Positions 968 through 46,916 of a DNA stretch of 64,000 nt are shown in pieces. Positions within the stretch are counted from its first letter, which is position 1; each line of letters begins with the position of its first letter. Made by a program: the position numbers and the translations under genes. Under the pieces are notes generated by a model. The model was not told the origin of the DNA. It did not search any database and worked only from the letters and a program-made list of their open reading frames with translations. The DNA comes from Alloprevotella sp. (GTDB lineage Bacteria; Bacteroidota; Bacteroidia; Bacteroidales; Bacteroidaceae), in NCBI GenBank assembly GCA_017471505.1, contig JAFUTC010000007.1, positions 62,001 through 126,000 of the forward strand. Reading direction: 5' to 3'.

Positions 968-1065
968 TTCCCGTATGTCTCGTCCCGTTTCAAGCCCTGA
1001 AACGCACATTTCAAGGCTTGAAATGCGCATTCCAAGCCTTGGAATGGAATACGGCATTATGTATC
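967..1065. repeat. Phased palindrome array, TTTCAAG family (array 1)
   Basis: Three 15-bp palindromes start at 988, 1009 and 1030, exactly 21 bp apart: TTTCAAGCCCTGAAA, TTTCAAGGCTTGAAA and TTCCAAGCCTTGGAA. They are separated by 6-bp spacers CGCACA and TGCGCA. One more period downstream, centred at 1058, is the core CATTATG, which is the core of the second (AATT) repeat family. One period upstream, centred near 974, is a degenerate CCGTATG. The array lies between the terminators of two convergent genes, so it is not part of either. No function is known. Confidence 0.85.
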
Positions 1066-8390: not shown

Positions 8391-8487
8391 TGCCAATTAA
8401 TAACGAATATTTAGGCTATTCCTTGTCAATATGCCCATTGTATTGTGAATGCAGGGGCTAATTGTGAGCCCATACATCTCTCACTCA

Positions 8488-9603
8488 ATGTCGCAGATAA
8501 CGAACCTCTCGCCCATCGCCACCAAGCCCCGCTACGATGTCCTCGACGGATTGCGCGGCGTGGCGGCCTTGTTGGTGGTTTGCTACCATCTTTTCGAATG
8601 TTTCGACTTCTCGCCGTTTCATTTCGGCTACCTGGCGGTCGATTTCTTCTTTATACTGTCGGGATTCGTTATCGGCTACGCTTACGACAACCGCTGGCCG
8701 GCCATGAGCCTTGGCACATTCGTGCGCAGGCGTCTGATTCGTCTGCATCCGATGGTGGTGTTCGGCGCCGTCTTGGGTGCAGTTGTCTTCTTGGCTTGTG
8801 GCAGCGAGCGGTGGGACCATAGCACCACCGCGTTCGATTGGGTTATGGTTGCCATGCTGCTGTCCATGTTTCTGATACCCTCATTGCCCGGCTCGACAAC
8901 CGATGTGCGCGGCAACACTGAGATATTCTCGCTGAACGGTCCGAGTTGGTCTTTGTTCTTCGAGTATATTGGCAACGTGGTCTATGCCGTATTTCTGCGT
9001 CGGTTGTCGAAGTGTGCGCTCGCCGTCAATACGTTTCTGCTGGGACTTGTGCTGATAGGCGTGTCCATACACTTTGAAACGACGGCGCTTGGATGGTCCT
9101 TTTCCGACTATGGCTTTTGGGGCGGACTGATACACATGCTCTTCCCCTACTCGCTCGGTTTGTATATGGCCAGATGCTTCAGGCCGATGAGGGTGCGCCA
9201 CAGTTTCCTGTGGGGAACTGTCCTACTCACGGCTGTTGCCATAATGCCGTCGTTCGGTTGGACGGGGATAGAGGGAGCCGACCTTGTCTTCGAACTGCTC
9301 TGCATCATCGTGGTGTTTCCGTTCATAGTGTGGATGGGTGCCTCGGAGCAGTATTTGAGTCCTGAAACCCACCTGGCGTGCCGTAGCCTTGGCAATCTCT
9401 CCTACCCGCTCTACCTCTGCCACTATCCCTTTATGTATGCCTTTTATCGGTTCATCGGATTCGACGGAAATCTGGTGCCGTTCAGCCGTTTCGGCGAGGT
9501 ATGGCCCTATGCGCTTATGCTTCTTGTCGGGGTCATAGTTCTCGGGTTCATGGCCTATAAGTTCTACGATGAACCCATACGCCGCCACCTGTCGAAACAA
9601 TAG
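8488..9603 (+). CDS. OafA/YrhL-type membrane acyltransferase
   Basis: A 371-residue acyltransferase-3 family membrane protein that O-acetylates or O-acylates surface polysaccharides or other extracytoplasmic substrates. The N-terminus has RYDVLDGLRGVAALLVVCYH, the conserved DGLRG and catalytic-site His region. It is followed by FILSGFVIGYAYDNR and about ten hydrophobic segments, for example ALMLLVGVIVLGFMAYKFYD at the end. I start at 8488 (MSQITNLSP) because the family normally begins 10-20 residues before DGLRG; an ATG at 8449 is also in frame. It stands alone on the plus strand between sialate genes, so its acceptor is not indicated. It could also modify EPS or O-antigen. Confidence 0.88.
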   Translation: MSQITNLSPIATKPRYDVLDGLRGVAALLVVCYHLFECFDFSPFHFGYLAVDFFFILSGFVIGYAYDNRWPAMSLGTFVRRRLIRLHPMVVFGAVLGAVVFLACGSERWDHSTTAFDWVMVAMLLSMFLIPSLPGSTTDVRGNTEIFSLNGPSWSLFFEYIGNVVYAVFLRRLSKCALAVNTFLLGLVLIGVSIHFETTALGWSFSDYGFWGGLIHMLFPYSLGLYMARCFRPMRVRHSFLWGTVLLTAVAIMPSFGWTGIEGADLVFELLCIIVVFPFIVWMGASEQYLSPETHLACRSLGNLSYPLYLCHYPFMYAFYRFIGFDGNLVPFSRFGEVWPYALMLLVGVIVLGFMAYKFYDEPIRRHLSKQ

Positions 9604-9612
9604 ATGCGGACC

Positions 9613-9713
9613 GATTCCATAATGCCGTAGAATAATTGCATTATGGAATTCGGAAATTGCATAATAGAATATGAAAATTGCATAATACAATCCGGCAACT
9701 GTATTATGCAATT
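9613..9713. repeat. Phased palindrome array, AATT family (array 2)
   Basis: Five imperfect copies of the 17-bp palindrome AATTGCATwATGCAATT begin at 9613, 9634, 9655, 9676 and 9697, exactly 21 bp apart. Examples are AATTGCATTATGGAATT (9634) and AACTGTATTATGCAATT (9697). The array fills the gap between the stop of the plus-strand acyltransferase and the stop of the minus-strand fusion gene. A weak 6-bp hairpin (TCCGAC/GTCGGA, 9757-9774) follows it. Confidence 0.9.
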
Positions 9714-9780: not shown

Positions 9781-12351
9781 CTATTCCTTAGGAAGCGTGC
9801 GCCAAGTCAGGTCTTTCTGTTCGCCATGTTGCGGAAAGGCCACCGACACCATAAGCGCCACAATCACGCTGACGGTCATCGACACGAATCCGAAGAGCAG
9901 GAAACTGGCCGGCGTGCAGAAATTCATCCACAACACTACGGCCGTGCCCACGCAGAAGCCCGTGAGTGCCGCCTTGCTACCGATGCGCGGGAAGAAGATG
10001 CCCATCAGGAAGAGTCCGCCTATGCCGCCGCTCAGCAAGCCAAGGATGGTGTTGAAATAGTCGAGCAGACTCTGAATGTCGACCATGGCCATGAGTATGG
10101 CAATACACATGCCGATTAGTCCAGCTATGACACCACTGTATCGGGCCGTCTTGACCTGGCCTGCCTCAGATGTCTTGCGGAAACGTCCCCAGAAGTCGAC
10201 CGTGAAGGCCGTGGAAATGCTGTTGATGTTTGAGGCAATGGTCGACATCGTTGCAGCAAAGACTGCGGCAATAAGCAATCCTGCCAGTCCGGCCGGCAAC
10301 TGGCTCATCATGAAGAACGGAAATATGGCGTCGGTCTTCTGCATGGTCAGGTCCATAGAGGCCGGATGCGTTTTGAAGAATGTGTAGAGTCCCGTGCCTA
10401 TGGTGAAGAACGCAATCGTTACGACAACCGACATCATACCATTGGTAAGAATGCCTCGGGCGGCACTTTTCTCGTCCTTCGTGGTCAGATAGCGCTGGAT
10501 GACGGTCTGGTCGGACGTGTAGGATATGAGATTGTTGGCAAGGCCGCCCAGAATGACTACCCAGAAGGTGGCACTCTTCCAGTCGATACTCCACACGAAC
10601 ATGCGGAACTTGTCGTTGTCGGTGGCAATTTGCCAAAAATCGCTGGCGCCGTTCTCACCGGTGTGCGTGATAAGATAGCCGGCTGCCAGAATGGCGCCGC
10701 CCACCAATATGATGCCCTGAATCACATCTCCCCATACGACGGCTTCCACGCCGCCCATGGTGCAGTAGATGATGGTTATGACAGCCATCAGGATGATACA
10801 GATGTAGATGTTTATGCCCGTGACGGCAGTCATGGCCAATGAGGGAAGGAAAATGACAAGCGCGGTGCGGGCCACCATGAATATGATGAACAGCAACGAG
10901 GCCATGAAGCGGGTGGCGTAGTTAAAGCGACGTTCCAGATACTCGTAGGCCGTGGTCACGTTGAGCCGACGGAAGAACGGAAGGTAGTATTTGATGACTG
11001 GGAACGACACGAGCAAAATGCAAATCTGCATGGGGTAATAGGTCCAGTCAGTAGCGTATGCCTTGGCCGGAATACTCATGTAAGTGATAGCCGACAGCAT
11101 CGTGGCGAAAATGCTTATACCGGCAGCCCACCACGGTATGCGACCGCCTCCCTTGAAGAAGTCTTCGCCGCCTTTCTGCCGACGCATGAAATAGACGCCC
11201 AGCAACAGCATGCCGGCCAGATAGAGAATCAGAACCGCCCAATTAAGCCAGCCGAAATGCGCCGTATAAGTCATCTGCAGGTCGGTTACGGCATTGGAGC
11301 GTATGCCAGGCATTTGCTCGCCGTTAAGTACCACCCAATGGGTTTCGCCCAGTTTGTTTTTATAGGGAATTATGGCAGCTCCGGCGCGGGCAGTGAGCGA
11401 GTCGCCGGGGATGGTGGCCCACGAATCGGTCACCGTGCTATAGAAACGGATGTCGGAGTTGAAGCGATACCAGTCGGGCGTATGCGTCAGATAGTCTGCT
11501 GCTGGATTCTGCAGTGCGTTCTCGAAGACGGACTTGTCAACGCCGCCAAACACGAGAATATGACCACAGCCCGATGCCACGGCACTAGCGCCCACCATGC
11601 ACCATTCGGTCGATGCAATAGTCTGCCATTTGCCGGTGCGCGGATTATAGGTCAGGCCGTCGGTATGCGTGGTTTTTGTCTGCGGGTCGAATCCTCCGAG
11701 CAGATAGAACTGTGGTCCGAGCGCGCCGTTCTGTACGACAGCCGTGGGCTGTATGCGTGCCGAGCCGGGCATCGCGGGCAGACTTTCCCACCCCTTGCCT
11801 GTTTCAGGATATCTCAGGCGGAAGAACAGGTGGCTTGCTTCTCCGTCGGTTTGGCCGCCTGCTACATAAATATATCCGTCACCAAATGCGCCGGCCATTT
11901 GGTCAAGTCCGGCAGGCAACGAAGGAAGTTCGCGTGCAAGCACTTTGCCGTCGGCAGCAGCCGTAAGCAACCACACGGCGCCTTCGCTGTTCTTTCCGTC
12001 GGAAGTACCACCTATGCACACAAGTCCGTCGGGCACGTTTACGCCAATACCATAGGCAAGCGGCTTAGGCAACTGTCCGGAGGAAGTCCAGACATTGTCA
12101 GTCAGCGTATAGATTTCATTGTAAAATACCTTCTCGCCGCCATGTGCCGCAGGGGTGTTTGGGAAATTGCAACCGCCCGCCACGACGATTTGCCCGTTGA
12201 GTGTGCCTGCAAACGGGGCCGACACGCCCTGAGGTCCGTTTATGGAATAAGAAGGTAGCGGTGTGACGACAAGTTCGTTAAACTTGTGTTCCTGTGCCAG
12301 TATCGGCAACGCAAATAGAATAAGAATGAGACTGAAAAGGTATCGTTTCAT
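9781..12351 (-). CDS. Mutarotase (NanM-like Kelch) fused to sodium:solute symporter
   Basis: An 856-residue two-part protein. After the signal peptide MKRYLFSLILILFALPILAQ comes a Kelch-type beta-propeller (residues about 25-350) with repeats such as GQIVVAGGCNFPNT, YIYVAGGQTD, YLLGGFD and HILVFGG. It resembles the cyclically permuted mutarotase family related to N-acetylneuraminate epimerase NanM. From about residue 365 a sodium:solute symporter domain with around 13 membrane segments follows (GWLNWAVLILYLAGMLLLGV, FKGGGRIPWWAAGISIFATM). The joined protein would anomerise sialic acid in the periplasm and import it with sodium. Such fusions occur in Bacteroidota; the substrate is inferred from neighbours. 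I start at 12351 because the longer reading adds an implausible leader before a clear signal peptide. Confidence 0.9.
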   Translation of the reverse strand: MKRYLFSLILILFALPILAQEHKFNELVVTPLPSYSINGPQGVSAPFAGTLNGQIVVAGGCNFPNTPAAHGGEKVFYNEIYTLTDNVWTSSGQLPKPLAYGIGVNVPDGLVCIGGTSDGKNSEGAVWLLTAAADGKVLARELPSLPAGLDQMAGAFGDGYIYVAGGQTDGEASHLFFRLRYPETGKGWESLPAMPGSARIQPTAVVQNGALGPQFYLLGGFDPQTKTTHTDGLTYNPRTGKWQTIASTEWCMVGASAVASGCGHILVFGGVDKSVFENALQNPAADYLTHTPDWYRFNSDIRFYSTVTDSWATIPGDSLTARAGAAIIPYKNKLGETHWVVLNGEQMPGIRSNAVTDLQMTYTAHFGWLNWAVLILYLAGMLLLGVYFMRRQKGGEDFFKGGGRIPWWAAGISIFATMLSAITYMSIPAKAYATDWTYYPMQICILLVSFPVIKYYLPFFRRLNVTTAYEYLERRFNYATRFMASLLFIIFMVARTALVIFLPSLAMTAVTGINIYICIILMAVITIIYCTMGGVEAVVWGDVIQGIILVGGAILAAGYLITHTGENGASDFWQIATDNDKFRMFVWSIDWKSATFWVVILGGLANNLISYTSDQTVIQRYLTTKDEKSAARGILTNGMMSVVVTIAFFTIGTGLYTFFKTHPASMDLTMQKTDAIFPFFMMSQLPAGLAGLLIAAVFAATMSTIASNINSISTAFTVDFWGRFRKTSEAGQVKTARYSGVIAGLIGMCIAILMAMVDIQSLLDYFNTILGLLSGGIGGLFLMGIFFPRIGSKAALTGFCVGTAVVLWMNFCTPASFLLFGFVSMTVSVIVALMVSVAFPQHGEQKDLTWRTLPKE

Positions 12352-12490
12352 CGGGCTAATTGTAATATGTACTTGCGAAAATACAATTATTTTGACTGAA
12401 AGCGGACAGATGTACCCATAAACTCGATAAGGCATCGATGAATCGTGGCATATTTCCGCCGGAATTGCATAATTGTATGCCGAAAAAGTT

Positions 12491-15064: not shown

Positions 15065-16312
15065 TTAGTAAAGATACTGTTCCATAGCCTTTGCTTCCTC
15101 GGCCATATTCAAATTGGTGTAAACCGTCTTCAAATCGGCTGCCCAGCGCTCGGGTTCGGAAGGAATCAAACCTTTAACTTTCTCAAGGTAAGGACGTGCC
15201 TTTTCGTAGTACGGACGTACCTGCTCGTTCATCACCTTCTCGTATTTTGCCTTACCGGCCGGCGTAACGGCGTAAGGCAGTTTGATGCGACCGTCATTGA
15301 CTTGTTCGGCCACGTCATTCATGTAGGTGTAACTGAGCTTGAGGTTCGACTCGATATCATTGGGGTCTATCTGCAGAGCAGCCTTGAAGTCGGCTTCGGC
15401 TTCTGCGTAGTTCTTCGGGTCGATATTCAGGTTCATGTATCCGCGTACATAGTGCGATGCAACAATATTGGGATAGCGTTCTACAAACTGGTTGGCAATC
15501 ACCATGGCGCTGCTCTTATCGCGATGCACTAACTCGTAGAGCATTTGCTGGCTCAAATCCTTGTTCTCGGTCTTTACGATGGCGTCTTCCAATACGTTGA
15601 AGTAAGCGACGGAGTCTTTTTTCTGTCCGGTGGCCTGCAGTAGCATCAGATACAAGTCACTTGTGCCCTTAGGATACTTGTCTAAAGCCAGGTTGGCCAT
15701 TTCAATCACCTTGTCCCAGTTCTTTGTCTGATAGTTAAGCAGTGCTATGTTGAAAAGGGCCTGATTGTAGTTATCCTTACCCTCGCCTTCGTAGTAATTC
15801 TGCGTTTCTTCGGGGCTGAAAACAGGATTTTTCGGCAGGTCGTAGTATTTTTCGAAGTACTTGGCCGCACCTTCGAGGTCGCCTCTCATACTTGCAAACT
15901 GGCCTGCATAATTGTAGAAGTCCATCATCTGCGAGATGTTCAACTTGTTCATAGCCTCAAATTCGCCCTTCTTACCTTTTTTGTCGGCGGCAAAGTCTGC
16001 TTCGTGGCTCTTCGTAAGGTATTCGAACGATTTGTCAAGCGCATCGCAGTAGAGAATTGTGTCAAACGGCTCCTGGTTGGCTGCTTTCGCCAATTCGGGC
16101 TGGAAAATGTTGATGTAGCATATTCCGATGTTACGATAGAGCTCTGCAAACTTCGTGGTCTTCGGATTCGTTTCCGCAGCCTTCAGCACATCGAGGGCTT
16201 TTTCCCATTTGCCCATGTGCATGGCCTCGTTGGCTTTTGTGATTGCACTGTTCTGTGCCGACATTGCAATGGCCGACACAATGAAAAGCGTTGTCAAAAA
16301 GATTTTTTTCAT
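15065..16312 (-). CDS. Exported TPR-repeat protein
   Basis: A 415-residue protein with a signal peptide (MKKIFLTTLFIVSAIAMSAQ) and tetratricopeptide repeats through most of its length, for example AITKANEAMHMGKWEKALDV, ALFNIALLNYQTKNWDKVIE and NYAEAEADFKAALQIDPNDI. It has no lipobox and no membrane span, so it should be periplasmic, where TPRs act as protein-protein scaffolds. Its start codon overlaps the gyrA stop codon (ATGA), implying translational coupling to gyrase. A TPR gene after gyrA is, as I recall, common in Bacteroidales, but its function is not established. Confidence 0.85.
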   Translation of the reverse strand: MKKIFLTTLFIVSAIAMSAQNSAITKANEAMHMGKWEKALDVLKAAETNPKTTKFAELYRNIGICYINIFQPELAKAANQEPFDTILYCDALDKSFEYLTKSHEADFAADKKGKKGEFEAMNKLNISQMMDFYNYAGQFASMRGDLEGAAKYFEKYYDLPKNPVFSPEETQNYYEGEGKDNYNQALFNIALLNYQTKNWDKVIEMANLALDKYPKGTSDLYLMLLQATGQKKDSVAYFNVLEDAIVKTENKDLSQQMLYELVHRDKSSAMVIANQFVERYPNIVASHYVRGYMNLNIDPKNYAEAEADFKAALQIDPNDIESNLKLSYTYMNDVAEQVNDGRIKLPYAVTPAGKAKYEKVMNEQVRPYYEKARPYLEKVKGLIPSEPERWAADLKTVYTNLNMAEEAKAMEQYLY

Positions 16313-18846
16313 AGTGATGTAATATTAAGATTCGTATTTTCGTTTAGTTCGATAGCGTTTTCGACCGTTTCGGTAGTTTCTACGTTCTCGTCATCGTCTG
16401 CAGTGGAAGACGGAACTTTGCAAACACTACTTATGACATCGTTTCGCTTAGAAAGATTAATCAGGGTAACACCTTGTGTGGCTCGTCCCATCACGCGGAC
16501 CTCAGATGTCTTCAGGCGGATGGCTATTCCGCTCTTGTTGATTATCATAAGGTCGTCGTTGTCGGTGACACATTTGATGGCATTAACATAGCCTGTCTTT
16601 TCGGTAATCTGCAATGTCTTGACGCCCTTACCGCCTCGGTTGGTTACGCGGTAGTCTTCTACGGCACTCTTCTTGCCGAAGCCTTTCTGACTGACAACCA
16701 TGATGGTTTCCGTATCGGGGTCGTTGACGCAAACCATTCCTACTACGGCATCTTCGTCGTTGTCGAGAGTTATACCGCGAACGCCGGTTGCAGCACGGCC
16801 CATGTCGCGCACTTTACTTTCGTGGAAGCGGATTGCACGGCCGCCGCGGTTGGCTATGATAAGTTCGTTGTCGCCGTTCGTAAGCACAGCGCTCACGACG
16901 CGGTCATCCGGACGGATGTTGATGGCTATGATACCGTTGGTTCTCGGACGTGAGTAGAGCGACAACGATGTTTTCTTCACGGTTCCCTTTTGCGTGCAGA
17001 ACACTACATAGTGGGAATTGCAGAATTCGGGGTCGTTGAGTTTCTTTACATAGAGGCATGCGTTGATGGCATCGTCGCTCTCGATGTTCAGCATATTTTG
17101 CACGGCACGGCCCTTAGAACTCTTGTTGCCTTCGGGCAGTTCGTAGGCTTTAAGCCAGTAGCACCGTCCTTTTGCAGTAAAGAACAGCATCGTGTCATGC
17201 ATCATGGCGGGATATATGTACTCAATAAAGTCGGTTTCGCGCGTATTTCCGCCCTTGCTACCTACTCCGCCGCGTGCCTGGGCACGGAATTCGGCCAGAG
17301 AAGTACGCTTGATGTAGCCGAGATGACTGATGGTGATGACGATTTCATCGTTGGCGTAGAAATCTTCGGGGTTGAATTCTTCGCTCGACAGTTTGATTTC
17401 AGTACGGCGCTCATCGCCATATTTTTCTTTAATCTCGCGAAGTTCATCCTTCATAATCTGTTTGCACAGCGTGTCGTCAGAAAGCACCCGGTTGTAGTAG
17501 TCGATGCGTTCCTCCAACTCCTGGTATTCGGCGTGGAGTTTGTCCTGCTGGATGTTTGTAAGTTGGGCCAGACGCATGTCTACAATGGCCTTGGCCTGAA
17601 TCTCGTCGAGACTGAAGCGCTGCATAAGGCTCTCGATGGCCTGCTGCGGTGTCTTGCTGGCGCGAATCAGGTGAACCACCTCGTCGATATTGTCCGATGC
17701 GATGATAAGTCCTTCGAGGATGTGGGCACGCTCGAGTGCTTTACGCAGGTCGTACTTGGTGCGACGGATTACTACGTCGTGACGGTGTTCCACAAAGGCT
17801 TGTATGCAATCGCGAAGGGTCAGCACCTTGGGACGTCCGTGGAGCAAACCGACGCAATTGACTGCAAAACTGCTTTGTAGGGCCGTCATCTTAAAGAGTT
17901 TGTTTAAGACGACATTGGCATTGGCATCGCGCTTGACATCAATGACTATGCGCAGTCCGTCGCGGTCGGATTCGTCGTTGATATTAGATATTCCTTCAAT
18001 TTTCTTTTCGTTGACCAGGTCGGCAATATATTTGATGAGTTCGGCCTTATTGACTCCGTAGGGAATCTCGTTGACCACGATGACGTCGTGCTCGGCCTCG
18101 TTTTCTATCTCGGTTTTTGCGCGGACAACTATGCGGCCCTTGCCGGTTTCATAAGCGCTCCGCACGCCTTGCATACCCATGATGTAGCCGCCGGTCGGGA
18201 AATCGGGAGCCTTGATATACTGCATGAGGCCCTCGGTATCGATTTCTGGATTGTCGATAAAGGCGATGGTTCCGTCAATCACTTCTCCGAGGTTGTGGGT
18301 GGGCACATTGGTGGCCATACCTACGGCAATGCCGCTTGCGCCATTGACCAGGAAGTTGGGAATGCGGGTCGGCAGGATGGTGGGTTCCTTGTGTCGGTCG
18401 TCGAAGTTATTGACCATGTCCACCGTCTCCTTGTCTATGTCCTGAAGCATGAGTTCTCCGAGGATGGACATACGCGCCTCGGTGTAACGCATAGCGGCCG
18501 GAGAGTCGCCATCCATCGAGCCGAAGTTTCCTTGGCCGTCCACGAGCGTATAGCGCAGGTTCCAGTCCTGTGCCATACGCACCAGGCCGCCGTAGATAGA
18601 ACTGTCGCCGTGCGGGTGGTACTTACCCATGACTTCACCTACGACGGTGGCGCTCTTGCGGTAGGCCTTGTCGTGCGTGAGTCCCATGTTCATCATTCCG
18701 AACAGGATGCGGCGCTGCACGGGCTTGAAGCCGTCGCGCACGTCAGGCAAGGCACGCGACACGATTACTGACATCGAATAGTCGATATAGGAAGTCTTCA
18801 TTTCCTTTTCAATATCGACCTTTATAATACGATCTTGATCAATCAT
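16309..18846 (-). CDS. gyrA: DNA gyrase subunit A
   Basis: An 845-residue GyrA, the DNA-cleaving subunit of gyrase, which adds negative supercoils with GyrB. The N-terminus SYIDYSMSVIVSRALPDVRD is classic. The quinolone region reads HPHGDSSIYGGLVRMAQ with Ser at the position equivalent to E. coli Ser83 and Gly at that of Asp87. The active-site tyrosine lies in MRYTEARMSILG. The C-terminal beta-pinwheel has the GyrA box NRGGKGVKT, which separates it from ParC. The acidic tail (STADDDENVETTETVENAIE) is extra. It overlaps the TPR gene by 4 bp downstream. A TACCTTTG promoter element lies 48 bp upstream, abutting a palindrome array. Confidence 0.97.
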   Translation of the reverse strand: MIDQDRIIKVDIEKEMKTSYIDYSMSVIVSRALPDVRDGFKPVQRRILFGMMNMGLTHDKAYRKSATVVGEVMGKYHPHGDSSIYGGLVRMAQDWNLRYTLVDGQGNFGSMDGDSPAAMRYTEARMSILGELMLQDIDKETVDMVNNFDDRHKEPTILPTRIPNFLVNGASGIAVGMATNVPTHNLGEVIDGTIAFIDNPEIDTEGLMQYIKAPDFPTGGYIMGMQGVRSAYETGKGRIVVRAKTEIENEAEHDVIVVNEIPYGVNKAELIKYIADLVNEKKIEGISNINDESDRDGLRIVIDVKRDANANVVLNKLFKMTALQSSFAVNCVGLLHGRPKVLTLRDCIQAFVEHRHDVVIRRTKYDLRKALERAHILEGLIIASDNIDEVVHLIRASKTPQQAIESLMQRFSLDEIQAKAIVDMRLAQLTNIQQDKLHAEYQELEERIDYYNRVLSDDTLCKQIMKDELREIKEKYGDERRTEIKLSSEEFNPEDFYANDEIVITISHLGYIKRTSLAEFRAQARGGVGSKGGNTRETDFIEYIYPAMMHDTMLFFTAKGRCYWLKAYELPEGNKSSKGRAVQNMLNIESDDAINACLYVKKLNDPEFCNSHYVVFCTQKGTVKKTSLSLYSRPRTNGIIAINIRPDDRVVSAVLTNGDNELIIANRGGRAIRFHESKVRDMGRAATGVRGITLDNDEDAVVGMVCVNDPDTETIMVVSQKGFGKKSAVEDYRVTNRGGKGVKTLQITEKTGYVNAIKCVTDNDDLMIINKSGIAIRLKTSEVRVMGRATQGVTLINLSKRNDVISSVCKVPSSTADDDENVETTETVENAIELNENTNLNITSL

Positions 18847-18904: not shown

Positions 18905-19005
18905 AATTCCATAATGAAATTTTGAAATTGTATAATGGAATTTTCAAATTGTATTATGCAATTTTTCGATTTCATAATGCAATTTTCGCAAGCCATAATT
19001 GAATT
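18905..19005. repeat. Phased palindrome array, AATT family (array 3)
   Basis: Five 17-bp units start at 18905, 18926, 18947, 18968 and 18989, exactly 21 bp apart. They include AATTCCATAATGAAATT, AATTGTATAATGGAATT and AATTGTATTATGCAATT, and the last unit is the most degenerate. The array lies between the glk-operon terminator and the gyrA -7 element and covers the likely -33 site. Together with these two features it accounts for the 318-bp gap. Confidence 0.9.
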
Positions 19006-22674: not shown

Positions 22675-23757
22675 TTAGTCTTCTATGCCAAACTTGTAGA
22701 TTGTTTTCTGCGAATAGACTTGACCTGGCTTCAATACGACGCTTGGAAAGTAGGGATGGTTGGGACTATCGGGGAAGTGCTGTGCTTCAAAGCACAATGC
22801 GCTGCGACGCGGGAAGGTGGCGCCGTTTTGTCCCTTGTATCCGTCGGCCCAGTTGTCGCTGTAGAACTGAAGTCCGGGTTCTGTGGTGTAAACCTCCATA
22901 GTGCGGCCGCTTTCGGGTTCCCAAATCTTGGCGGCAAAGGAGAGTTCGCCCACTTCGCGCTTGTTGAGCACGTAGCAGTGGTCGTAGCCGGCTCCGTGCT
23001 TTATCTGCTCGTTGTCGGCATCTATGCGCTCTCCCACCTCATGGGGTTCGCGGAAATCGAAGGGCGTACCTTCCACTTTGAGTATCTCGCCGGTGGGGAT
23101 GCTGGTTTCGTCTATCGGCAGATAGAAGTCGGCATTGATTTGACACTTCACGTTCATTGCCGAGGGAGTCGGGTTGGCTATGCCGGCAAGTGAGAAGAAT
23201 CCGTGCGAAGTCATATTGACGATGGTGCGCTTATTGGTGCGTCCCTTGTAGTCAATGACTAATTCGTCGTCGTCCGTAAGCGTGTACATCACGACCATCT
23301 CCAGTTCGCCAGGAAATCCTTCCTGATAGTAGGCCGAAACATAGCGCAGGATGAGCGTGTTATCGTTCAGTTGCTCGGGTTCCCACACGCGGGCATGGAA
23401 ACCGGTCGGACCACCGTGGAGATGGTTCGGGCCGTTGTTAATAGCCAACTTGTATTCTTTTCCATTAAGCACGAAGGTGCCTTTGGCTATGCGGTTGCCG
23501 TAGCGGCCTACGAGGGTGGACAGGAACGGTTCGGGACTGTTCACGCAGTCGTCGATGTTGTCGTGGCCCTGTATGACGTTGGCATAGTTGCCATTGCGGT
23601 CGGGCACCATAATAGAAACAATGGAGCCGCCATAGTTCGTAATGGCGACTTCCATACCGTTATTGTTCGTCAGGAAAAAGAGGTCGACGTCTTTTCCTTG
23701 TACTTTCTTCTGAAAATCCTGGGCTTTCAAGCCGCTCTTGTTTTGTGTTTCTTCCAT
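22675..23757 (-). CDS. galM: Aldose 1-epimerase (galactose mutarotase)
   Basis: A 360-residue galactose mutarotase that interconverts beta- and alpha-galactose so galactokinase can act. Marks are GRYGNRIAKGTF (about 85-96), NGPNHLHGGPTGFH with the first catalytic His, SHGFFSLAG with the second, GYDHCYVLN, and GLQFYSDNWADG near residue 300. A longer reading adds 32 residues with no family likeness, so I start at 23757 (MEETQNKSG). No signal peptide is seen, so it is cytoplasmic. It is the first gene of the galM-MFS-galK-ROK operon. Confidence 0.95.
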   Translation of the reverse strand: MEETQNKSGLKAQDFQKKVQGKDVDLFFLTNNNGMEVAITNYGGSIVSIMVPDRNGNYANVIQGHDNIDDCVNSPEPFLSTLVGRYGNRIAKGTFVLNGKEYKLAINNGPNHLHGGPTGFHARVWEPEQLNDNTLILRYVSAYYQEGFPGELEMVVMYTLTDDDELVIDYKGRTNKRTIVNMTSHGFFSLAGIANPTPSAMNVKCQINADFYLPIDETSIPTGEILKVEGTPFDFREPHEVGERIDADNEQIKHGAGYDHCYVLNKREVGELSFAAKIWEPESGRTMEVYTTEPGLQFYSDNWADGYKGQNGATFPRRSALCFEAQHFPDSPNHPYFPSVVLKPGQVYSQKTIYKFGIED

Positions 23758-23812
23758 AAATAATGAAATAAAGAGTGGGTTATATTTGGCTTGCTTATAG
23801 CAAAGCGGTTTA

Positions 23813-23820
23813 CAAATATA
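23813..23820 (-). promoter_or_regulatory. Putative -7 element of the galactose operon promoter
   Basis: Reads TATATTTG on the minus strand, 55 bp upstream of the galM start. A TTTG lies 16 bp upstream (23840-23837), closer than the usual 19 bp. Confidence 0.5.
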
Positions 23821-23921
23821 AGATTTTATGATTTTGCAAAGCAGAGTTTCCAATATTTTTTTTCATAATTCTCGAATAAAGTCCGGCTATCGGACGGGCG
23901 GTCTGCTGCTTTCCTTCGTGA

Positions 23922-24022
23922 AATCGGATTATGGAATAAAAAAATCACATAATGCAATTCTGAAATTCCATAATGCAATTCTCAGATTGTATAATGCAAT
24001 TTTTTGATTGTATTATGCAATT
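23922..24022. repeat. Phased palindrome array, AATT family (array 4)
   Basis: Five units start at 23922, 23943, 23964, 23985 and 24006, exactly 21 bp apart. The best are AATTCCATAATGCAATT (23964) and GATTGTATAATGCAATT (23985); the first is the most degenerate. The array lies in the 361-bp gap between the lpxA-like terminator and the gal operon promoter, about 100 bp upstream of the latter. Apart from these elements the gap shows nothing. Confidence 0.9.
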
Positions 24023-24118: not shown

Positions 24119-24913
24119 CTACTTGATTTTGCGACGGATAATGCCGAGTTTCGATTGGTTGATGAACTCAAGCACATTGCCTATTTCCTCGCTGTCGGGG
24201 ATTTGATCCTTGATGCGCTGGATAACGTCTTCCAAACTGGTGTCGCTCATGTAGATGATTCGGTAGGCGTTGCTGATGTGGCTCACTACGCGCTCGTCGA
24301 TTTCCCCGTACTTGCCGAGCACATCAACGTTGACACCGTGATAGGTGGTTGGGTTGCCGCCGGCAATCAGGTAAGGAGGCACGTCGTGGTGTACGCGGCT
24401 GCCACTTTGCACAAGCGAGAAGATGCCGACCTGTACGGTGTGGTGCAGGATGACCCCGCTCGACAGGATTACATAGTCGCTAATCTTGCACTCCCCTGCC
24501 AACTGGGCGTGGATGCCTATGACGCAGTGGCTGCCGATAATCACATCGTGGCAGATGTGTACGCCGTCCATCAGGAAGTTGTCGTCGCCGATTGACGTGG
24601 CCGTGGTCTCGTCGAGACTGCCTGCGATGACCACGTTTTCACGTATGCGGTTTTTGTGGCCAATCTTCACATGGGTCTGCTGGCCTGTCTTGTAGCGGAA
24701 ACTCTGCGGCGTGGCGCCGATTACGGCATTCTGATAGATGATATTGTCATTGCCCATGACGGTTCCCTCAAGGATGGAGACGTGGGACATGATGACACAG
24801 TTGTCGCCGATAACCACATTCTTGTCGATGTAGGCGAACGGATGAACGACAACTCCTTCTCCGAGTCGGGCCGACGGGTCGATATAGGCTAAAGGACTGA
24901 TTTGTGATTGCAT
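24119..24913 (-). CDS. LpxA-like acyltransferase with altered active site
   Basis: A 264-residue left-handed beta-helix protein of the UDP-GlcNAc acyltransferase (LpxA) type, with hexapeptide repeats from residue 10 to about 180 and the LpxA C-terminal helical domain (AYRIIYMSDTSLEDVIQRIK). LpxA transfers a hydroxyacyl chain to UDP-GlcNAc in lipid A synthesis. The catalytic His pair is kept (DGVHICHD, His119 and His122). The LpxA histidine of LAGH is Glu141 here (LAGECKI), and the HRGT motif is replaced by AGSLDETT. Bacteroidota usually carry the true lpxA beside an lpxC-fabZ fusion, so this is probably a paralogue. It follows tolC by 24 bp in the RND efflux operon. Acting on another nucleotide sugar is possible. 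Confidence 0.8.
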   Translation of the reverse strand: MQSQISPLAYIDPSARLGEGVVVHPFAYIDKNVVIGDNCVIMSHVSILEGTVMGNDNIIYQNAVIGATPQSFRYKTGQQTHVKIGHKNRIRENVVIAGSLDETTATSIGDDNFLMDGVHICHDVIIGSHCVIGIHAQLAGECKISDYVILSSGVILHHTVQVGIFSLVQSGSRVHHDVPPYLIAGGNPTTYHGVNVDVLGKYGEIDERVVSHISNAYRIIYMSDTSLEDVIQRIKDQIPDSEEIGNVLEFINQSKLGIIRRKIK

Positions 24914-29595: not shown

Positions 29596-30774
29596 TTAGA
29601 AAGGCAGTTTGCCATCTTTAATAGCCTGCTTGGCATCCTCGCGCATCTTTGCGGATTCTTCAGGCGTAATCGGTTTGATTTCTTGTTCGTTCTTAAGGGA
29701 TTGTACGCCTTCCACTACGATTCTATCACCGGCTTTCAGTCCGCTGGTAACTACGTAGTTCGAACCATCGTTCTGGCTCTCGACTGTAATCTCGGTAGAG
29801 ATGACTTTGTTATCCTTTCCGACTACATATACGAACTTTTTGTCCTGTATCTCAACGGTAGCAGCCTGCGGAATAAGTATGGCATTTGCCGAGAATACGG
29901 GGAACTGCACATTGGCCGAACCTCCGCTACGCAAGATGCGGTGCGGATTGGCAAAGGTGGCTCGCATCTGTACGGCACCCGTTGTCTGGTCGATGACGCC
30001 GCCTACGGCATCAATCTTGCCCTCTTCTCCGTAGAGCGTTCCGTCGGCAAGCACCAGACGGATGGATGGCATCTGGCGCAAGGCTTCCTGTACGCCGCCG
30101 TTGCCCGTACGTGCCAGTTCGAGCAACTGTTTTTCAGTCATCGAGAAATAGGCATTCACCGAACTCATGTCGGAAACGGTCGTAAACGGCTCTTGCATGC
30201 TCGGACCCACTAATGCACCTACTTTCAAAGGTATCATTCCTATCACGCCGCTGGCGGGACTTGTAACCGTACACCAATTCAGGTTGTCCTGAGCTGAGGC
30301 CAACTGAGCCTGAGCCGAAGCCAACTGAGCCTTCAGACTCTTCAGGTTGTTTTCGGCAAGTTGCAAGTCGTAGTCGCTAATAATGTCCTTGCTGCGAAGC
30401 AGTTTCTTGTTTTCAACCGTCAGTTCCTGCGTAGATATATTGGCACGAACCACGTCGATTTGTGCGCGGGCTGCCTTCACAGCAGCCAGGTATTGGGCAT
30501 TGTCAATCTGAAACAAAACCTGTCCCTTACTTACCATCTGGCCTTCTTTGACGCGGATGCTGGTTATAAAGCCCGATATTTTCGGACGAATCTCCACGTC
30601 TTGCACACCCTTGATGGATGCGGGATAAGTAACGTTCAACTGTGCCTGTTGGGGTTGCACCGTGATGACGGCATAGCGGTCGTCGGCAGGCGGCAGGCCC
30701 TGTTGTTTCTTTCCACAACTTACCAGTGAGGCAAGTACGAGCGATAAGACTACAATTCTTTTCATTCGTTTCAT
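29596..30774 (-). CDS. RND efflux periplasmic adaptor lipoprotein, AcrA type
   Basis: A 392-residue membrane fusion protein linking pump and channel. The lipoprotein signal MKRMKRIVVLSLVLASLVSC ends in a lipobox. The order is the family one: a barrel-sandwich start with IRPKISGFITSIRVKEGQMV (about 62-81), a coiled-coil hairpin (ARAQIDVVRANISTQELTVE and NNLKSLKAQLASAQAQLASA), the returning lipoyl half WCTVTSPASGVIGMIPLKVG, then beta-barrel and membrane-proximal domains. It is first in the adaptor-pump-channel-lpxA-like operon. A palindrome array lies about 200 bp upstream. Only a poor TAAATTCG promoter-like element was seen before it. Confidence 0.95.
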   Translation of the reverse strand: MKRMKRIVVLSLVLASLVSCGKKQQGLPPADDRYAVITVQPQQAQLNVTYPASIKGVQDVEIRPKISGFITSIRVKEGQMVSKGQVLFQIDNAQYLAAVKAARAQIDVVRANISTQELTVENKKLLRSKDIISDYDLQLAENNLKSLKAQLASAQAQLASAQDNLNWCTVTSPASGVIGMIPLKVGALVGPSMQEPFTTVSDMSSVNAYFSMTEKQLLELARTGNGGVQEALRQMPSIRLVLADGTLYGEEGKIDAVGGVIDQTTGAVQMRATFANPHRILRSGGSANVQFPVFSANAILIPQAATVEIQDKKFVYVVGKDNKVISTEITVESQNDGSNYVVTSGLKAGDRIVVEGVQSLKNEQEIKPITPEESAKMREDAKQAIKDGKLPF

Positions 30775-30982: not shown

Positions 30983-31083
30983 AATTGCATAATCCGATAT
31001 TGAAATTGAATAATGGAATATTCAGATTGTATAATGCAATTTTGAAATTTGATTATGCAATTTTTCTGTCCCATAATGCTATT
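30983..31083. repeat. Phased palindrome array, AATT family (array 5)
   Basis: Five units start at 30983, 31004, 31025, 31046 and 31067, exactly 21 bp apart. They include AATTGCATAATCCGATA, GATTGTATAATGCAATT and AATTTGATTATGCAATT. The array occupies the 404-bp gap between the efflux operon start and the GH84 terminator. From 30775 to 30982 nothing was recognised apart from AT-rich sequence and a weak promoter-like element. Confidence 0.9.
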
Positions 31084-31178: not shown

Positions 31179-33104
31179 CTATTCGGCTTTCTTGGCGGCG
31201 TCTTCTTTCAGCCAGTCGATAAATGGCCGCAAGGTCTGCGCCGCAGGTTCTGCCGTCTCCAAACTGAGTTTGATGTCGTCGCCCAGTCCGGTGAGAATCT
31301 CAAACTTATAGTCGGCATTGTTCTCATAGTCGGACTCCACGGGCTGACGGCCTTCCAGCAGATTTACGGCGTCGCGCGTCATGGCCTTGAGTTTCAACAG
31401 CCACGGACGAAGGTCGTCGTAGAAAAGTCGGTCGCTCTTCAACTTCGAATCCTTAAGTCCCTCGAGCACGCCACAGGCCTCGTGAACCGATTTCAGTTCC
31501 GCCAGCAAAACGTCCTTGACCGTCTGGTCCGGACGATATTGCTTATAGTCGTTCATAATATACTCCAACGCATCGGCATCGTAGTAGCGCAGGAAAGGAG
31601 CAGCCTTTCTCAGGGCTTCCACATAGGGTGCGCTGACTGTTGCCTTCAGCGAGGCTTCCCAACTCTTCTGGGCATTGAAAGCATTATTGTGCCAGGTGTA
31701 ATCTGCGGCGCTGAACAGTGCAATCTTCGACACTTCGCCCTGCTGCATGGGGTTGAGGATTATCGTGCCCGTTCCGCGAAGCGACGGTTCCAGTCTTGCC
31801 ATGTTGGCAATATGCTTTTCGTCGCGGAAGTTCGCATAGATGTCCATCGGGAAAAGTTTGGTCACGTCGTTGTCGTTGCAAGGATAGTTCCACCACCAGC
31901 TGGGTTCGTTTCCGAGCCACTTAGCCACTCGTTCAAGGTCGAAACTGTTCGGCACCGACCATATCTTTCGGCCGGTAATATAGATATTGACTTTCTCGGG
32001 CACGCTCCGCAACGAACGGAAGAACCTTTCACCCTTTTCCAGCGACACCCACGAGTAGGCATATAGTTGGGGCACATAGTGCAACGGCTTAACCATCTCG
32101 TCGGCCATGGCTCCGATGCCGTTCCATCGCTGGTCTATTCGGTTCTGTAGGTCGGCCAGGCGAAGGGCACAGCGATTCAGCGACACATCGTCGTCGGGCA
32201 CGCCCACGTCGTCAACAAACACGCCAAACTGACGGACGCCCAACTGATGCATTGCCTCAAACTTATCCATAATCTTGTCAATCACTTTCACGTCGGTAGT
32301 GTCCATGAAAGTATGTCCGGGATGAATGGCCCAAATAAAGTTCACCTTGTTCTCGTGAGCCACGTCGCAAATCTCTTTCAGCATCTGCTGCGTCAGGTAG
32401 CCTATGCGCTGCTGCTCGGGTGTAATGGTTGTGGGATAGGCATCGCCCCAATACTTCGAGTGATAAGGGTCAGACTTCGCTCCGTACATGTAGGCGTTCA
32501 TCTTGTAGCGTGCCATGAAGCGAAACAAGTCCTTCGTCACTTCGGCCGAATATGGCACTCCGTAATAGCCTTCTATCACACCGCGGTTTTTAAGGTCGGC
32601 ATAGTCGTAGATGGTTACGGCTGACAGATTCGACGTACCTCCGTCGAAAATCTGCTCGAGAGTGGCCAAACCGCAGAATACGGCATCGGTGTTCTCGCCT
32701 ACAATCAGCAACTGTGCCTTGCCGGCCTTGTTGCCGTAAAGGTGGAAGATATGGCGGTCGTACTTGCGCGCATTGAACACACTACGCGACAGTTGCAGTG
32801 CATCTACCTTCTTGTCGGCCGAACCGTGACTTCCGTTCGTGCCTAAAAGCAAGTTGCTGGTCTGCTTGTTCACCTTGTCGGCAAAGCGAACGTCCAGTCC
32901 ACTTTCTTTAAGAATCTGCTCAGCCCGATTGCGCGTGGCTTGGTCGATAGTAGGTTCTGCCACCACCGTGACCACCTTGGAGAACGACACCGTATGGGGC
33001 AAGACGATTTGCTTTTGTGGTACGGGGAAAATCGTGTAGTCGTGCTGCGCCATAATATTCATCGAAAAAATAGCACAGACAAACAGGAAGAAATACTTTT
33101 TCAT
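31179..33104 (-). CDS. Exported GH84 beta-N-acetylglucosaminidase
   Basis: A 641-residue glycoside hydrolase of family 84 (O-GlcNAcase/hyaluronidase type), releasing terminal beta-linked GlcNAc from host glycans. The signal peptide is MKKYFFLFVCAIFSMNIMAQ. A GH20b-like N-terminal domain (about 25-165) precedes the catalytic barrel, which opens with RGVIEGYYGVPYS (about 174-186) and carries the adjacent catalytic aspartates in FGVFVDDVG (Asp298 and Asp299). Family members use substrate-assisted catalysis with that pair. A helical C-terminal domain ends the protein; no carbohydrate-binding module is evident. I start at 33104 because the longer reading adds 30 residues before a clear signal peptide. 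The released GlcNAc would join the sialate-derived pool. Confidence 0.94.
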   Translation of the reverse strand: MKKYFFLFVCAIFSMNIMAQHDYTIFPVPQKQIVLPHTVSFSKVVTVVAEPTIDQATRNRAEQILKESGLDVRFADKVNKQTSNLLLGTNGSHGSADKKVDALQLSRSVFNARKYDRHIFHLYGNKAGKAQLLIVGENTDAVFCGLATLEQIFDGGTSNLSAVTIYDYADLKNRGVIEGYYGVPYSAEVTKDLFRFMARYKMNAYMYGAKSDPYHSKYWGDAYPTTITPEQQRIGYLTQQMLKEICDVAHENKVNFIWAIHPGHTFMDTTDVKVIDKIMDKFEAMHQLGVRQFGVFVDDVGVPDDDVSLNRCALRLADLQNRIDQRWNGIGAMADEMVKPLHYVPQLYAYSWVSLEKGERFFRSLRSVPEKVNIYITGRKIWSVPNSFDLERVAKWLGNEPSWWWNYPCNDNDVTKLFPMDIYANFRDEKHIANMARLEPSLRGTGTIILNPMQQGEVSKIALFSAADYTWHNNAFNAQKSWEASLKATVSAPYVEALRKAAPFLRYYDADALEYIMNDYKQYRPDQTVKDVLLAELKSVHEACGVLEGLKDSKLKSDRLFYDDLRPWLLKLKAMTRDAVNLLEGRQPVESDYENNADYKFEILTGLGDDIKLSLETAEPAAQTLRPFIDWLKEDAAKKAE

Positions 33105-33178
33105 GGAAATGCGTATGGTATCTTGTTTGAAAATTTTCGTAAAGTTAGCGCAAATTTCATAATTGCATCGGCACATAC

Positions 33179-33218
33179 AAAAGAAATAGGGCACGAATAC
33201 GGATATCCGTGCCCTATC
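33179..33218 (-). terminator. Terminator of the DASS transporter gene
   Basis: A perfect 10-bp stem ATAGGGCACG (33187-33196) and CGTGCCCTAT (33209-33218), followed on the minus strand by TTTCTTTT, 23 bp past the stop. Confidence 0.9.
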
Positions 33219-37365: not shown

Positions 37366-38817
37366 TTATTCGGATTGATGTTCGTAGCATCCCATGTCGG
37401 GATTGTGGTCGGCAGTTCTGCTATTACCGTGCCGGTCGAGCGGAGCCTCAGAGGCTGCGATGTCATAGTCGGCCGAATTGACGGCTTTTGACTGTTCCGA
37501 CAAATCGAAATTGAAAACCAATTTGTCATAGTCGAAAGCCGGTGTGAAGTTATCGGACTCCTTCATCTCATTGCGATAGTCGGAAGAGAAAATGCAATTC
37601 TGGAAATGAAGTTCGTCGTCCACGCGCTCGGTATTAAGCAGGCAGTTAGTAAAATTATATTCAAACAGATCGGAAGTATAGTCTTGGTTTTTCGTACCGA
37701 CCACGTCGTCGAAACTAATACCGCTTATGATACTGTTCTTGAAATGAAGATTTTTTATGGGGCATCGTTCGTCGTCGCGATAATTGCTGAACCGAAGGGC
37801 AATGCCGTGTCCGCCCACAAACGGGTAGAAATTGGCAATCGTACAATGTATGAATTCGCTGTCACCGCCATACAGATTGACGCAATCGAGTCCTGCGTTC
37901 GAAATCTGCGTGTTCACCACCTTTATCTGGCTTCCGTCCGACGAAAGGCCATATTTCGACACGTTGTGAATAATGCTGTTTTCAAGCAGCAACTTTTGTT
38001 GCGATTCATCCGACTTTTCAATCAGCACGCCGTTATTGCCTCCGTGAATGTCGACATAATTCAGATGGTTGCCAAAACTATTCGCGCCGAGCACGACACC
38101 GCCCCACTGGCCGGGAATCTTATCGTAAGGCATGTCTACAATCATGTTTCCCAGTCGGTCGCTACGGAATACAACGGGTTTCTCAAGGGTTCCGTTCACA
38201 ATGAGTTTGCCGTTTACCTTGAGGTCGGACTTCTCGTCGAACAACACCGTCACACCGCTTTCTATAGTAAGCGTTCCCGTTTCTTCCACAGTCAGTCCGC
38301 CTTTCACATGGTAAGGTCGCGCTCCCGACAATACTTGGTCGTCGGCAATACTTAAGTCGTCAAGTGTAATGACACTTTGCGAATAGCATTTCAATACGAT
38401 ATGCTGTTCCTTGCCGCCTTCTGTCAGGAAATGCAACTTGTCTGTCTCCATCTCGGCCTGATCTTTATCGAAATCGGTGGCTTTGACGAAGAAAAAAACA
38501 ATTAGGCTGTCCTTCTTTGCTATTTCGACATTCTCGATAGTCTGTCCGGGAAGTAGCGACTGCCCGTCAATATTCACGCGGAACGGAGATTCGCTCCCCT
38601 TCTCTAACCAGATTTTGCTGAAACGTATAGGTTGCTTGTGAAGGTTATATACTTTGAACGTATCGGTCTGTGTAACTTCGTTGGCTATCACGGTGTCCAG
38701 GCTAGCCGTATCTTTCCAAATTTCCACGCCAGCATTGGGCGAAACGATATAATTATCGTCCTCCATGCAAGCATAAAGACACAACACGCTCAGTAAACAC
38801 AAAACAAGCTTTCTCAT
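37366..38817 (-). CDS. Right-handed beta-helix lipoprotein
   Basis: A 483-residue predicted lipoprotein. Its signal MRKLVLCLLSVLCLYAC ends in a lipobox, followed by the acidic MEDDN that in Bacteroidota can direct lipoproteins to the cell surface. An N-terminal Ig-like domain (about 25-140) leads into a parallel beta-helix with rungs such as GTLTIESGVTVLFDEKSDLK, NGKLIVNGTLEKPVVF, IIHNVSKYGLSSDGSQIKVV and FKNSIISGISFDDVVG. Such helices often bind or cleave polysaccharides, but no catalytic residues can be named. It lies 11 bp before dnaB and 40 bp after pepD. Homologues of unknown role are common in Bacteroidales. Confidence 0.82.
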   Translation of the reverse strand: MRKLVLCLLSVLCLYACMEDDNYIVSPNAGVEIWKDTASLDTVIANEVTQTDTFKVYNLHKQPIRFSKIWLEKGSESPFRVNIDGQSLLPGQTIENVEIAKKDSLIVFFFVKATDFDKDQAEMETDKLHFLTEGGKEQHIVLKCYSQSVITLDDLSIADDQVLSGARPYHVKGGLTVEETGTLTIESGVTVLFDEKSDLKVNGKLIVNGTLEKPVVFRSDRLGNMIVDMPYDKIPGQWGGVVLGANSFGNHLNYVDIHGGNNGVLIEKSDESQQKLLLENSIIHNVSKYGLSSDGSQIKVVNTQISNAGLDCVNLYGGDSEFIHCTIANFYPFVGGHGIALRFSNYRDDERCPIKNLHFKNSIISGISFDDVVGTKNQDYTSDLFEYNFTNCLLNTERVDDELHFQNCIFSSDYRNEMKESDNFTPAFDYDKLVFNFDLSEQSKAVNSADYDIAASEAPLDRHGNSRTADHNPDMGCYEHQSE

Positions 38818-46821: not shown

Positions 46822-46916
46822 GACCATATTTTTCTCCGTTTCAAGGCTTGGAATGTGCATTTCAAGCCCTGAAATGTGCATTTCAAGCCTTTGGAATGGA
46901 AACGGCATTATGGGAA
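46822..46916. repeat. Phased palindrome array, TTTCAAG family (array 6)
   Basis: Units start at 46839, 46860 and 46881: TTTCAAGGCTTGGAA, TTTCAAGCCCTGAAA and TTTCAAGCCTTTGGAA (one extra T), separated by TGTGCA twice. One period on, centred at 46909, is CATTATG, as in array 1, within the shared end sequence ACGGCATTATG. A CCATAT lies before the first unit. The array lies in the 446-bp gap between the divergent rpsF and oxidoreductase genes, upstream of the rpsF promoter. From 46917 to 47132 I see nothing but AT-rich sequence. Confidence 0.85.

Follow-up and report, generated by a model that had tools for sequence, protein, structure and literature searches.

Phased palindrome arrays in Alloprevotella suggest a protein-bound chromosome-marking system with a species-changing code

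Short palindromes repeated at exactly two turns of the DNA helix form arrays along the chromosome of an Alloprevotella sp. (GenBank assembly GCA_017471505.1, here G000). We describe these arrays starting from a stretch of 64,000 nucleotides, the window, which covers positions 62,001 to 126,000 of contig JAFUTC010000007.1 (C4). The arrays lie mostly between genes, recur about every 10 kb and have no flanking genes in common between species. Related species carry arrays of the same geometry built from other palindromes. These features suggest a protein-bound system of chromosome marking with a code that changes between species. Judged from sequence, there is about an even chance that the arrays are nucleation sites for a cooperative, fast-evolving dimeric protein that organises or marks the chromosome.

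Arrays in the window and along the chromosome

The four class-A arrays of the window each consist of five 17-bp near-palindromes joined by 4-bp linkers, and all steps are 21 bp. A first-pass annotation of the window had named these four arrays with their exact 21-bp steps. A check of the units agrees with it, and Tandem Repeats Finder recovers all four at period 21. Its list was incomplete in that the window holds two additional arrays of class B (centres 1016 and 46867). The arrays, none assigned to a strand, are as follows.

985..1047, class-B array centred at 1016, three CCRTTTCAAGSCTTGAAAYGG units in 21-bp steps and an in-phase CATTATG core at +42, found by Tandem Repeats Finder
9613..9713, class-A array of five units at 21 bp, between the convergent genes 8449-9603(+) (Acyl_transf_3) and 9781-12435(-) (SSF/NANM)
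18905..19005, class-A array of five units at 21 bp, starting 58 bp past the ATG of the GyrA open reading frame (ORF) 16309-18846(-)
23922..24022, class-A array of five units at 21 bp, between 22675-23853(-) and 24119-24913(-)
30983..31083, class-A array of five units at 21 bp, between 29596-30774(-) and 31179-33194(-)
46836..46898, class-B array centred at 46867, three units in 21-bp steps and an in-phase CATTATG core at +42, found by Tandem Repeats Finder; the right half of the third unit is shifted by one base

The arrays occur far outside the window, which bears out the genome-wide distribution expected at first. G000 is a metagenome-assembled genome (MAG) of 1.44 Mb, 77% complete. The sample scanned comprised contig C1 (352 kb) and 286 kb of C4 including the window, or 638 kb of 1,441 kb. 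The results throughout come from MAG assemblies with crude gene calls, from samples that cover relatives in part, and from motifs partly read by eye; one genome was compared per species, and detection was set for arrays of three or four similar units or more.

The sample contains 49 class-A arrays (AATTGCATWATGCAATT) with a five-unit chain score of at least 52, 33 in C1 and 16 in C4. Their scores run from 54 to 76; those of two first-order Markov versions of the 638 kb do not exceed 42. The weak members at C1 4290, 128598 and 192799 (scores 58, 60 and 54) are retained in every count. At a chain threshold of 58 there are 162 positions at period 21, 19 at period 14 and none at the other periods from 12 to 39. 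The period-14 chains, at two thirds of 21, are presumably the same arrays as those of period 21. A sequence-blind lag scan gave 32 peaks in C1 and 17 in C4 at lag 21 and none at the other lags from 15 to 35, and a sequence-blind palindrome scan agrees with it. The two-unit A pattern, with up to three mismatches, has 284 forward and 289 reverse matches in G000; its reversed control has none. A chance origin of the exact-phase arrays is excluded.

Unit steps are exactly 21 bp, without the scatter around this value that would have spoken against the initial description. The fixed number of five units did not hold: five is usual in a range of three to six. The 32 clusters of C1 have five units in 18 cases, four in eight, six in three, three in two and one in one, counting units that match at 11 or more of 17 positions. 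The sample also contains 12 class-B arrays (ATTTCAAGSCTTGAAAT), built of three units at 21 bp. All 12 have a CATWATG-like core (at least 6/7) in phase at +42 or -42, three of them on both sides. By the gene call, the centres of 4 of the 49 class-A arrays fall inside an ORF and the others fall between genes.

The arrays are evenly spaced. Classes A and B together define 59 intervals in G000 with a mean of 10,263 bp, a minimum of 4,263 bp and a coefficient of variation (CV) of 0.39. Keeping class A fixed and scattering class B at random over the free intergenic gaps gives a mean CV of 0.61 and 6.2 intervals shorter than 4 kb (none observed); not one of 20,000 placements was as regular. The 12 class-B arrays fall where class-A arrays leave large gaps. 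For class A by itself the 47 intervals have a CV of 0.56 against 0.99 expected, with no interval below 4 kb against 11.8 expected and 0 of 20,000 permutations as regular. A null weighted by gap length leaves the G000 result unchanged. The longest interval between arrays in the sampled contigs is 19.7 kb.

Spacing was also measured in two relatives. In G044, 34 motif clusters in 317 kb have a mean spacing of 9.5 kb, a minimum of 3.9 kb and a CV of 0.50 against 0.87 (P 0.0005), and one of the 34 lies inside a gene call; these are the clusters with at least two unit matches out of 71, the 37 with a single match being left out. In G072, 40 arrays of several families have a mean spacing of 10.1 kb and a minimum of 2.8 kb (P 0.0001), with 4 intervals below 4 kb against 11 expected (P 0.0015). 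Even spacing is strong in G000, good in G044 and partial in G072.

The Pfam domains DNA_topoisoIV and gyrase C-terminal are present in gyrA, at 16309-18846(-), the gene next to the class-A array 18905..19005. The window gave no match to Rfam or to tRNAs. The GC skew of C4, in 50-kb steps, flips from plus to minus near 100 kb (near 38000 in the window), and a replication origin or terminus perhaps lies within the window or close to it.

Fine structure and independence of the units

The 49 class-A arrays were stacked on the centre of unit 3, which gave 98 sequences with the reverse complements. The stacked information is 28.3, 26.7 and 20.3 bits for units 0, 1 and 2. The next five 21-bp steps outward hold 2.9, 2.1, 1.8, 1.5 and 0.9 bits against a background of 0.63 +/- 0.09, and varying unit numbers may contribute to the first of these steps. 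In this average the phased signal weakens outward over about four weak units per side, and CATA/TATG stay in phase as far out as about 130 bp. The average is symmetrical about its centre with no separate terminal repeat, and has neither a sharp border nor terminal inverted repeats of the type found in miniature inverted-repeat transposable elements (MITEs). The array looks like a graded dyad-symmetric site and not a bordered element. Nothing marks the arrays as decaying transposon ends, an origin that the first-pass annotation had set against its own proposal. Outer units resembling GTTAAGATAATTTAAC occur at one end of five arrays of the relative G002 (L095, L096, L097, L099 and L103; phase read by eye), and similar outer units occur at G000 C1 128598 and near 192799.

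The units behave almost as if each had been drawn separately from a binding motif. Likeness within an array hardly exceeds that between arrays (within and between, 0.742 and 0.742 in class A; 0.819 and 0.828 in the period-21 units of G072), and therefore neither tandem duplication nor copying explains the arrays. Near-independent units are what selection for protein binding in place gives, and slippage or transposition should leave a stronger likeness. The highest identity between two of the 49 class-A arrays is 0.90 across 80 bp (0.88 across 101 bp), the median is 0.74, and no pair is near-identical. Hairpin covariation is absent: no axis exceeds the permutation maxima in complementarity, and the half-sites do not covary.

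The units had been taken at first for drifted copies of one ancestor, and a mobile unit resembling repetitive extragenic palindromes (REPs) had been offered as an alternative to protein binding. The near-independent units speak against the former; the latter is not supported, given the lack of hairpin covariation and of near-identical copies and the hardly raised likeness within arrays. Three other candidates were rejected. A minisatellite made by tandem duplication was discarded because units of the same array are not clearly more alike than those of different arrays. A CRISPR (clustered regularly interspaced short palindromic repeats) array was discarded on its layout, 17-bp units with 4-bp linkers and no unrelated spacers of repeat length (no search for cas genes was made). 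RNA hairpins or cruciforms were discarded as well; covariation was negative, and a G-U polarity was weak (P 0.03) and not directed towards the transcribed strand.

Geometry and palindromes in related genomes

By GyrA the closest relative among 58 genomes of the genus is G002, at 92% identity, and the next is at 82% (a few genomes gave no GyrA match). The A motif was found in 2 of the 58. Among 399 genomes of the family, a sample that does not include G002, it was found in G000 itself and as a lone match in G149, taken as chance, as was a lone match in G040. A search of genome_contigs, from which the source genome may be left out, gave one contig. A viral match (L112) is an AT-rich stretch without a five-unit array and was also put down to chance. 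These searches first suggested a clade-private element, a view overturned by the sequence-blind scan.

That scan counted intergenic repeats at 38/63 matches, with N runs in G072 masked. It found 46 at period 21 and 2 at all other periods from 14 to 39 in G000, 18 at period 21 and 6 at others in G044 (397 kb), and 13 at period 21, 27 at period 22 and none at others in G072 (400 kb). At 37/63, samples of 80 kb each gave 4 in G017, 5 in G008, 5 in G020 (and 2 at period 22) and 4 in G016. The arrays of G017 are less clean than those of the other array-bearing relatives. Chains of four palindromes (24/32) at period 21 occur at 36 places in G000, 7 in G002 and 6 in G072, and none was found at this threshold in G004.

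The palindromes themselves differ. G002 combines class-A arrays with a class of its own, B' ATTTCACASTGTGAAAT; 19 candidates in 366 kb scored 50 or more as chains, of which those scoring 53 or more were retained, and the class-B' count is a lower bound (at most one per stretch). Read by eye and from consensus units, the units of G072 are GTTTG-N7-CAAAC (21 bp) and GCTCRYGAGC (22 bp), those of G008 and G020 are TTCTGCA..TGCAGAA and TGGCA..TGCCA, and that of G016 is CCTATCG..CGATAGG. In G044 the unit joins a palindrome of 10 bp, GTCAGCTGAC, to an asymmetric TAAGGA. G112, which belongs to a different genus of the family, has GTTCC-N7-GGAAC, with 9 forward and 9 reverse pair matches and three to five units at nine loci inspected; this family had no match in five other genomes, four of them congeners. 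Reverse complements were added to symmetrise the consensus units, and a motif picked by eye served to collect those of G008, G020, G016 and G112; the symmetry of these units is therefore no evidence on its own. Within the genus the G072 family occurs in 1 of 58 genomes (166 matches), as does the G044 family (26 matches). The four families searched by sequence are each limited to one genome or one sister pair. In one neighbourhood the arrays are displaced by one or two genes (G000 C1 97459/103979 and G072 28145/33346; few syntenic gaps reach 110 bp). Geometry outlives palindrome sequence across species, a feature that could not be seen from the window alone.

Outside the genus, four of eight 20-kb pieces gave one or two weak candidate peaks at 22 or 23 (one also at 39), one had direct repeats of 11/22/33 bp and three had none. 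In 50 kb of E. coli K-12 there was none at 21 or 22 and one at 18.

Several other repeats were observed. In G072:C6 1-400000 (L138-L157) about nine unit families of period 21 or 22 can be told apart by eye, several of which occur once only in the 400 kb; the period-22 families look even-centred and the period-21 families odd-centred. An asymmetric G072 motif has all of its C6 matches on the plus strand and mixed strands in C5, among the matches listed. Its 7-bp spacer is C-rich on the plus strand, and a link to replication direction is possible. G004 has a few intergenic direct repeats of 9/18 bp (C1 6819, 251748, 293760 and 295302; for example GTTCACGGTGTTCATGGC), which are another kind of array. 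In G096, of another genus of the family, 11-bp direct repeats GGGACGCTTTT with lags of 22 and 33 occur at L182:5685-5770.

The flanking genes are not common to the species. Among 273 reciprocal-best ortholog pairs from eight array-bearing species, 8 are flanked in both, with an odds ratio of 0.96. The gene ends that adjoin arrays are 149 3' ends and 141 5' ends. The genes beside one-off G072 arrays, viewed at 8 of 11 places, form no regulator pattern by eye.

Interpretation, rival explanations and known systems

The evidence fits a dimeric helix-turn-helix-like protein on palindromes two turns apart that spreads cooperatively. On this view a homodimeric protein that recognises specific sequences in double-strand DNA would nucleate at each array, and it is predicted to polymerise along the DNA, one dimer to every two helical turns. 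Half-sites that alternate in orientation about once per turn would place 6-10 half-sites on one face over 60-105 bp, where the DNA may be wrapped, and binding probably extends outward over the weaker phased sites. Cooperative protein binding, one of the ideas of the first-pass annotation, remains the best reading. Even spacing without common flanking genes argues for a role at the level of the chromosome. The arrays may act as chromosome-wide nodes (compaction, bridging or supercoil-domain borders) instead of switching particular genes; a part in compaction or as borders of domains would be the first choice and self-marking the second. The recognition surface would evolve fast; at least some genomes have two or more array classes, and arrays would be lost and then re-made at new places with new palindromes as phase and spacing persist. 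More tentatively, Prevotellaceae-type chromosomes may be marked about every 10 kb by arrays with fast-evolving binders, with geometry and spacing inherited and the palindrome not, in a co-evolution of DNA and binder like that of eukaryotic centromeres.

Several observations weigh against this interpretation. No binder was found; the one Lrp/AsnC protein that was followed hardly changes and occurs in array-free species. Several families in one genome (two in G000 and, by eye, some nine in the 400 kb of G072) mean that several specificities are needed. Independence of the units is incomplete. A small within-array excess appears in two of four comparisons of unit likeness: the period-22 units of G072 are 0.721 alike within and 0.704 between arrays, about 2.7 standard errors higher, and for adjacent class-A units the likeness is 0.774 against 0.754 by chance, a slight excess. 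Regular spacing in G044 emerged only with the later and more sensitive motif clusters; the 16 arrays detected by lag have a CV of 1.04 (P 0.84), with P 0.014 for the minimum and P 0.06 for short intervals. The CV in G072 is not significant (P 0.12), and one interval there is 45 kb. G044 gives no palindrome chain at 24/32. G004 (400 kb) has no array of lag 21 or 22, its intergenic repeats being four at 18 and one each at 14 and 27, and its single palindrome chain does not rise above noise. The 80 kb of G015 hold one intergenic 21-bp array at most, which is of low complexity, and three repeats at other periods. In G000, convergent gaps of at least 110 bp contain an array more often than divergent gaps (13/23 vs 12/44, p 0.03), an excess not present in G002, G044 or G072.

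Other explanations account for part of the evidence. Unlikely, yet the least so among them, is that the arrays label the resident chromosome for defence, repair or uptake in the manner of Chi and turn over in an arms race. It agrees with sequences private to a genome or sister pair, with several classes per genome, with flanking genes that are not common and with the absence of any interval above 19.7 kb in the sampled contigs of G000. However, Chi-like signals are short and non-palindromic and are not known to form phased arrays, and the 45-kb interval of G072 holds no detected array. We consider it improbable that a transposase spread a mobile palindromic element, similar to a MITE, a REP or the related bacterial interspersed mosaic elements (BIMEs) and REP doublets forming hairpins (REPINs). 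The many interspersed, mostly intergenic and lineage-specific copies would be accounted for, target immunity would give the even spacing and mutual repulsion of copies, and the highest whole-array identities, given above, are in its favour. It is opposed by unit likeness hardly raised within arrays and no near-identical pair among 49, by an average signal that fades at the edges without a border (variation in unit number may blur the first step), by classes A and B avoiding each other despite different sequences, and by the lack of hairpin covariation.

Just as improbable is a regulon, with the arrays as operator clusters of a global transcription factor. Clustered palindromic sites of 13-17 bp at two-turn phase are targets of Lrp-type regulators (PMC2995911). 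The 8 of 273 ortholog pairs are what independence predicts, which led us to reject this candidate; moreover arrays adjoin 3' ends as frequently as 5' ends, an array is present in 13 of the 23 convergent gaps in G000, and even spacing is unexpected of a regulon. Less probable again are DNA-shape sites for gyrase or a general wrapping protein (HU/IHF-like) with no dedicated binder. AT-rich and GC-containing steps alternate in each 21-bp unit, the signal covers 100-270 bp, the spacing is about 10 kb and one array is directly upstream of gyrA; but base identity in class A, up to 1.9 bits per position, exceeds what shape should need, and gyrase is common to the species where the palindromes are not. 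The least probable is an RNA-level feature, with hairpin arrays acting as terminators or within small RNAs. Palindromic, mostly intergenic units, some of which are inverted copies of their neighbours, and the weak within-array G-T/A-C polarity (P 0.03) agree with it, and the negative covariation does not.

If the reading of the arrays as sites of a dedicated dimeric protein is true, they are a feature of bacterial chromosomes defined by geometry and spacing and not by sequence, for which no counterpart was found. Candidate sites can be read from the genome and would give a handle on what sets chromosome domains of about 10 kb in bacteria. Palindrome turnover at constant geometry would be a bacterial case of the DNA-protein co-evolution usually discussed for eukaryotic centromeres.

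The first-pass annotation knew of no named element of this form, and none is described in the titles and abstract openings of the open-licence literature searched. The nearest named repeats encountered there are BrickBuilt (PMC4596501) and the GTAG/CGTC REPs (PMC3733652). BrickBuilt is a MITE of Porphyromonas gingivalis with a leader and a tail carrying terminal inverted repeats, present as 19 elements in ATCC 33277 (PMC4596501). Like the arrays, it is from Bacteroidales, is intergenic and has tandem repeats of similar period (23 nt); its consensus AGAYCATARTATCCTCTCRTRTG was judged non-palindromic, unlike the array units.

Lrp-type complexes place dimers on 13-17-bp sites at two- or three-turn spacing on one face with about 100 bp wrapped, and members of the Lrp/AsnC family differ widely in specificity (PMC2995911). 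The arrays match the operator clusters of these feast/famine regulators, for example those of Ss-LrpB, in site size and two-turn spacing. They differ from operators of regulated genes in that 61 arrays, evenly spaced and without flanking genes common to the species, were counted in a sample of 44% of the assembly. Lrp is considered an unlikely binder. It has one match each in G000 and G002 and is found in 55 of 58 genus genomes, and its recognition region is nearly unchanged by eye in comparison with G002 and G052. Because this region is nearly constant while the palindromes differ, the arrays were not filed as an Lrp complex, although they would work like one.

The comparison with REP/BIME and REPINs rests on stem-loops, copy likeness, phase and spacing. 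These elements are likewise short, dispersed, intergenic, clustered and lineage-specific palindromes. Unlike them, the 49 arrays show no selection for a stem-loop by compensatory pairing and no near-identical copies of a master sequence, and they have exact two-turn phase, near-independent units and even spacing. The sites of matS/MatP, parS/ParB and KOPS (FtsK orienting polar sequences) are dispersed, serve architectural or segregation proteins and are not bound to single genes; the arrays resemble them in being dispersed and not tied to single genes. Those systems use single short sites that are confined to a macrodomain or oriented along a replichore, whereas the arrays have three to six phased units, are evenly spaced and have a sequence private to the species.
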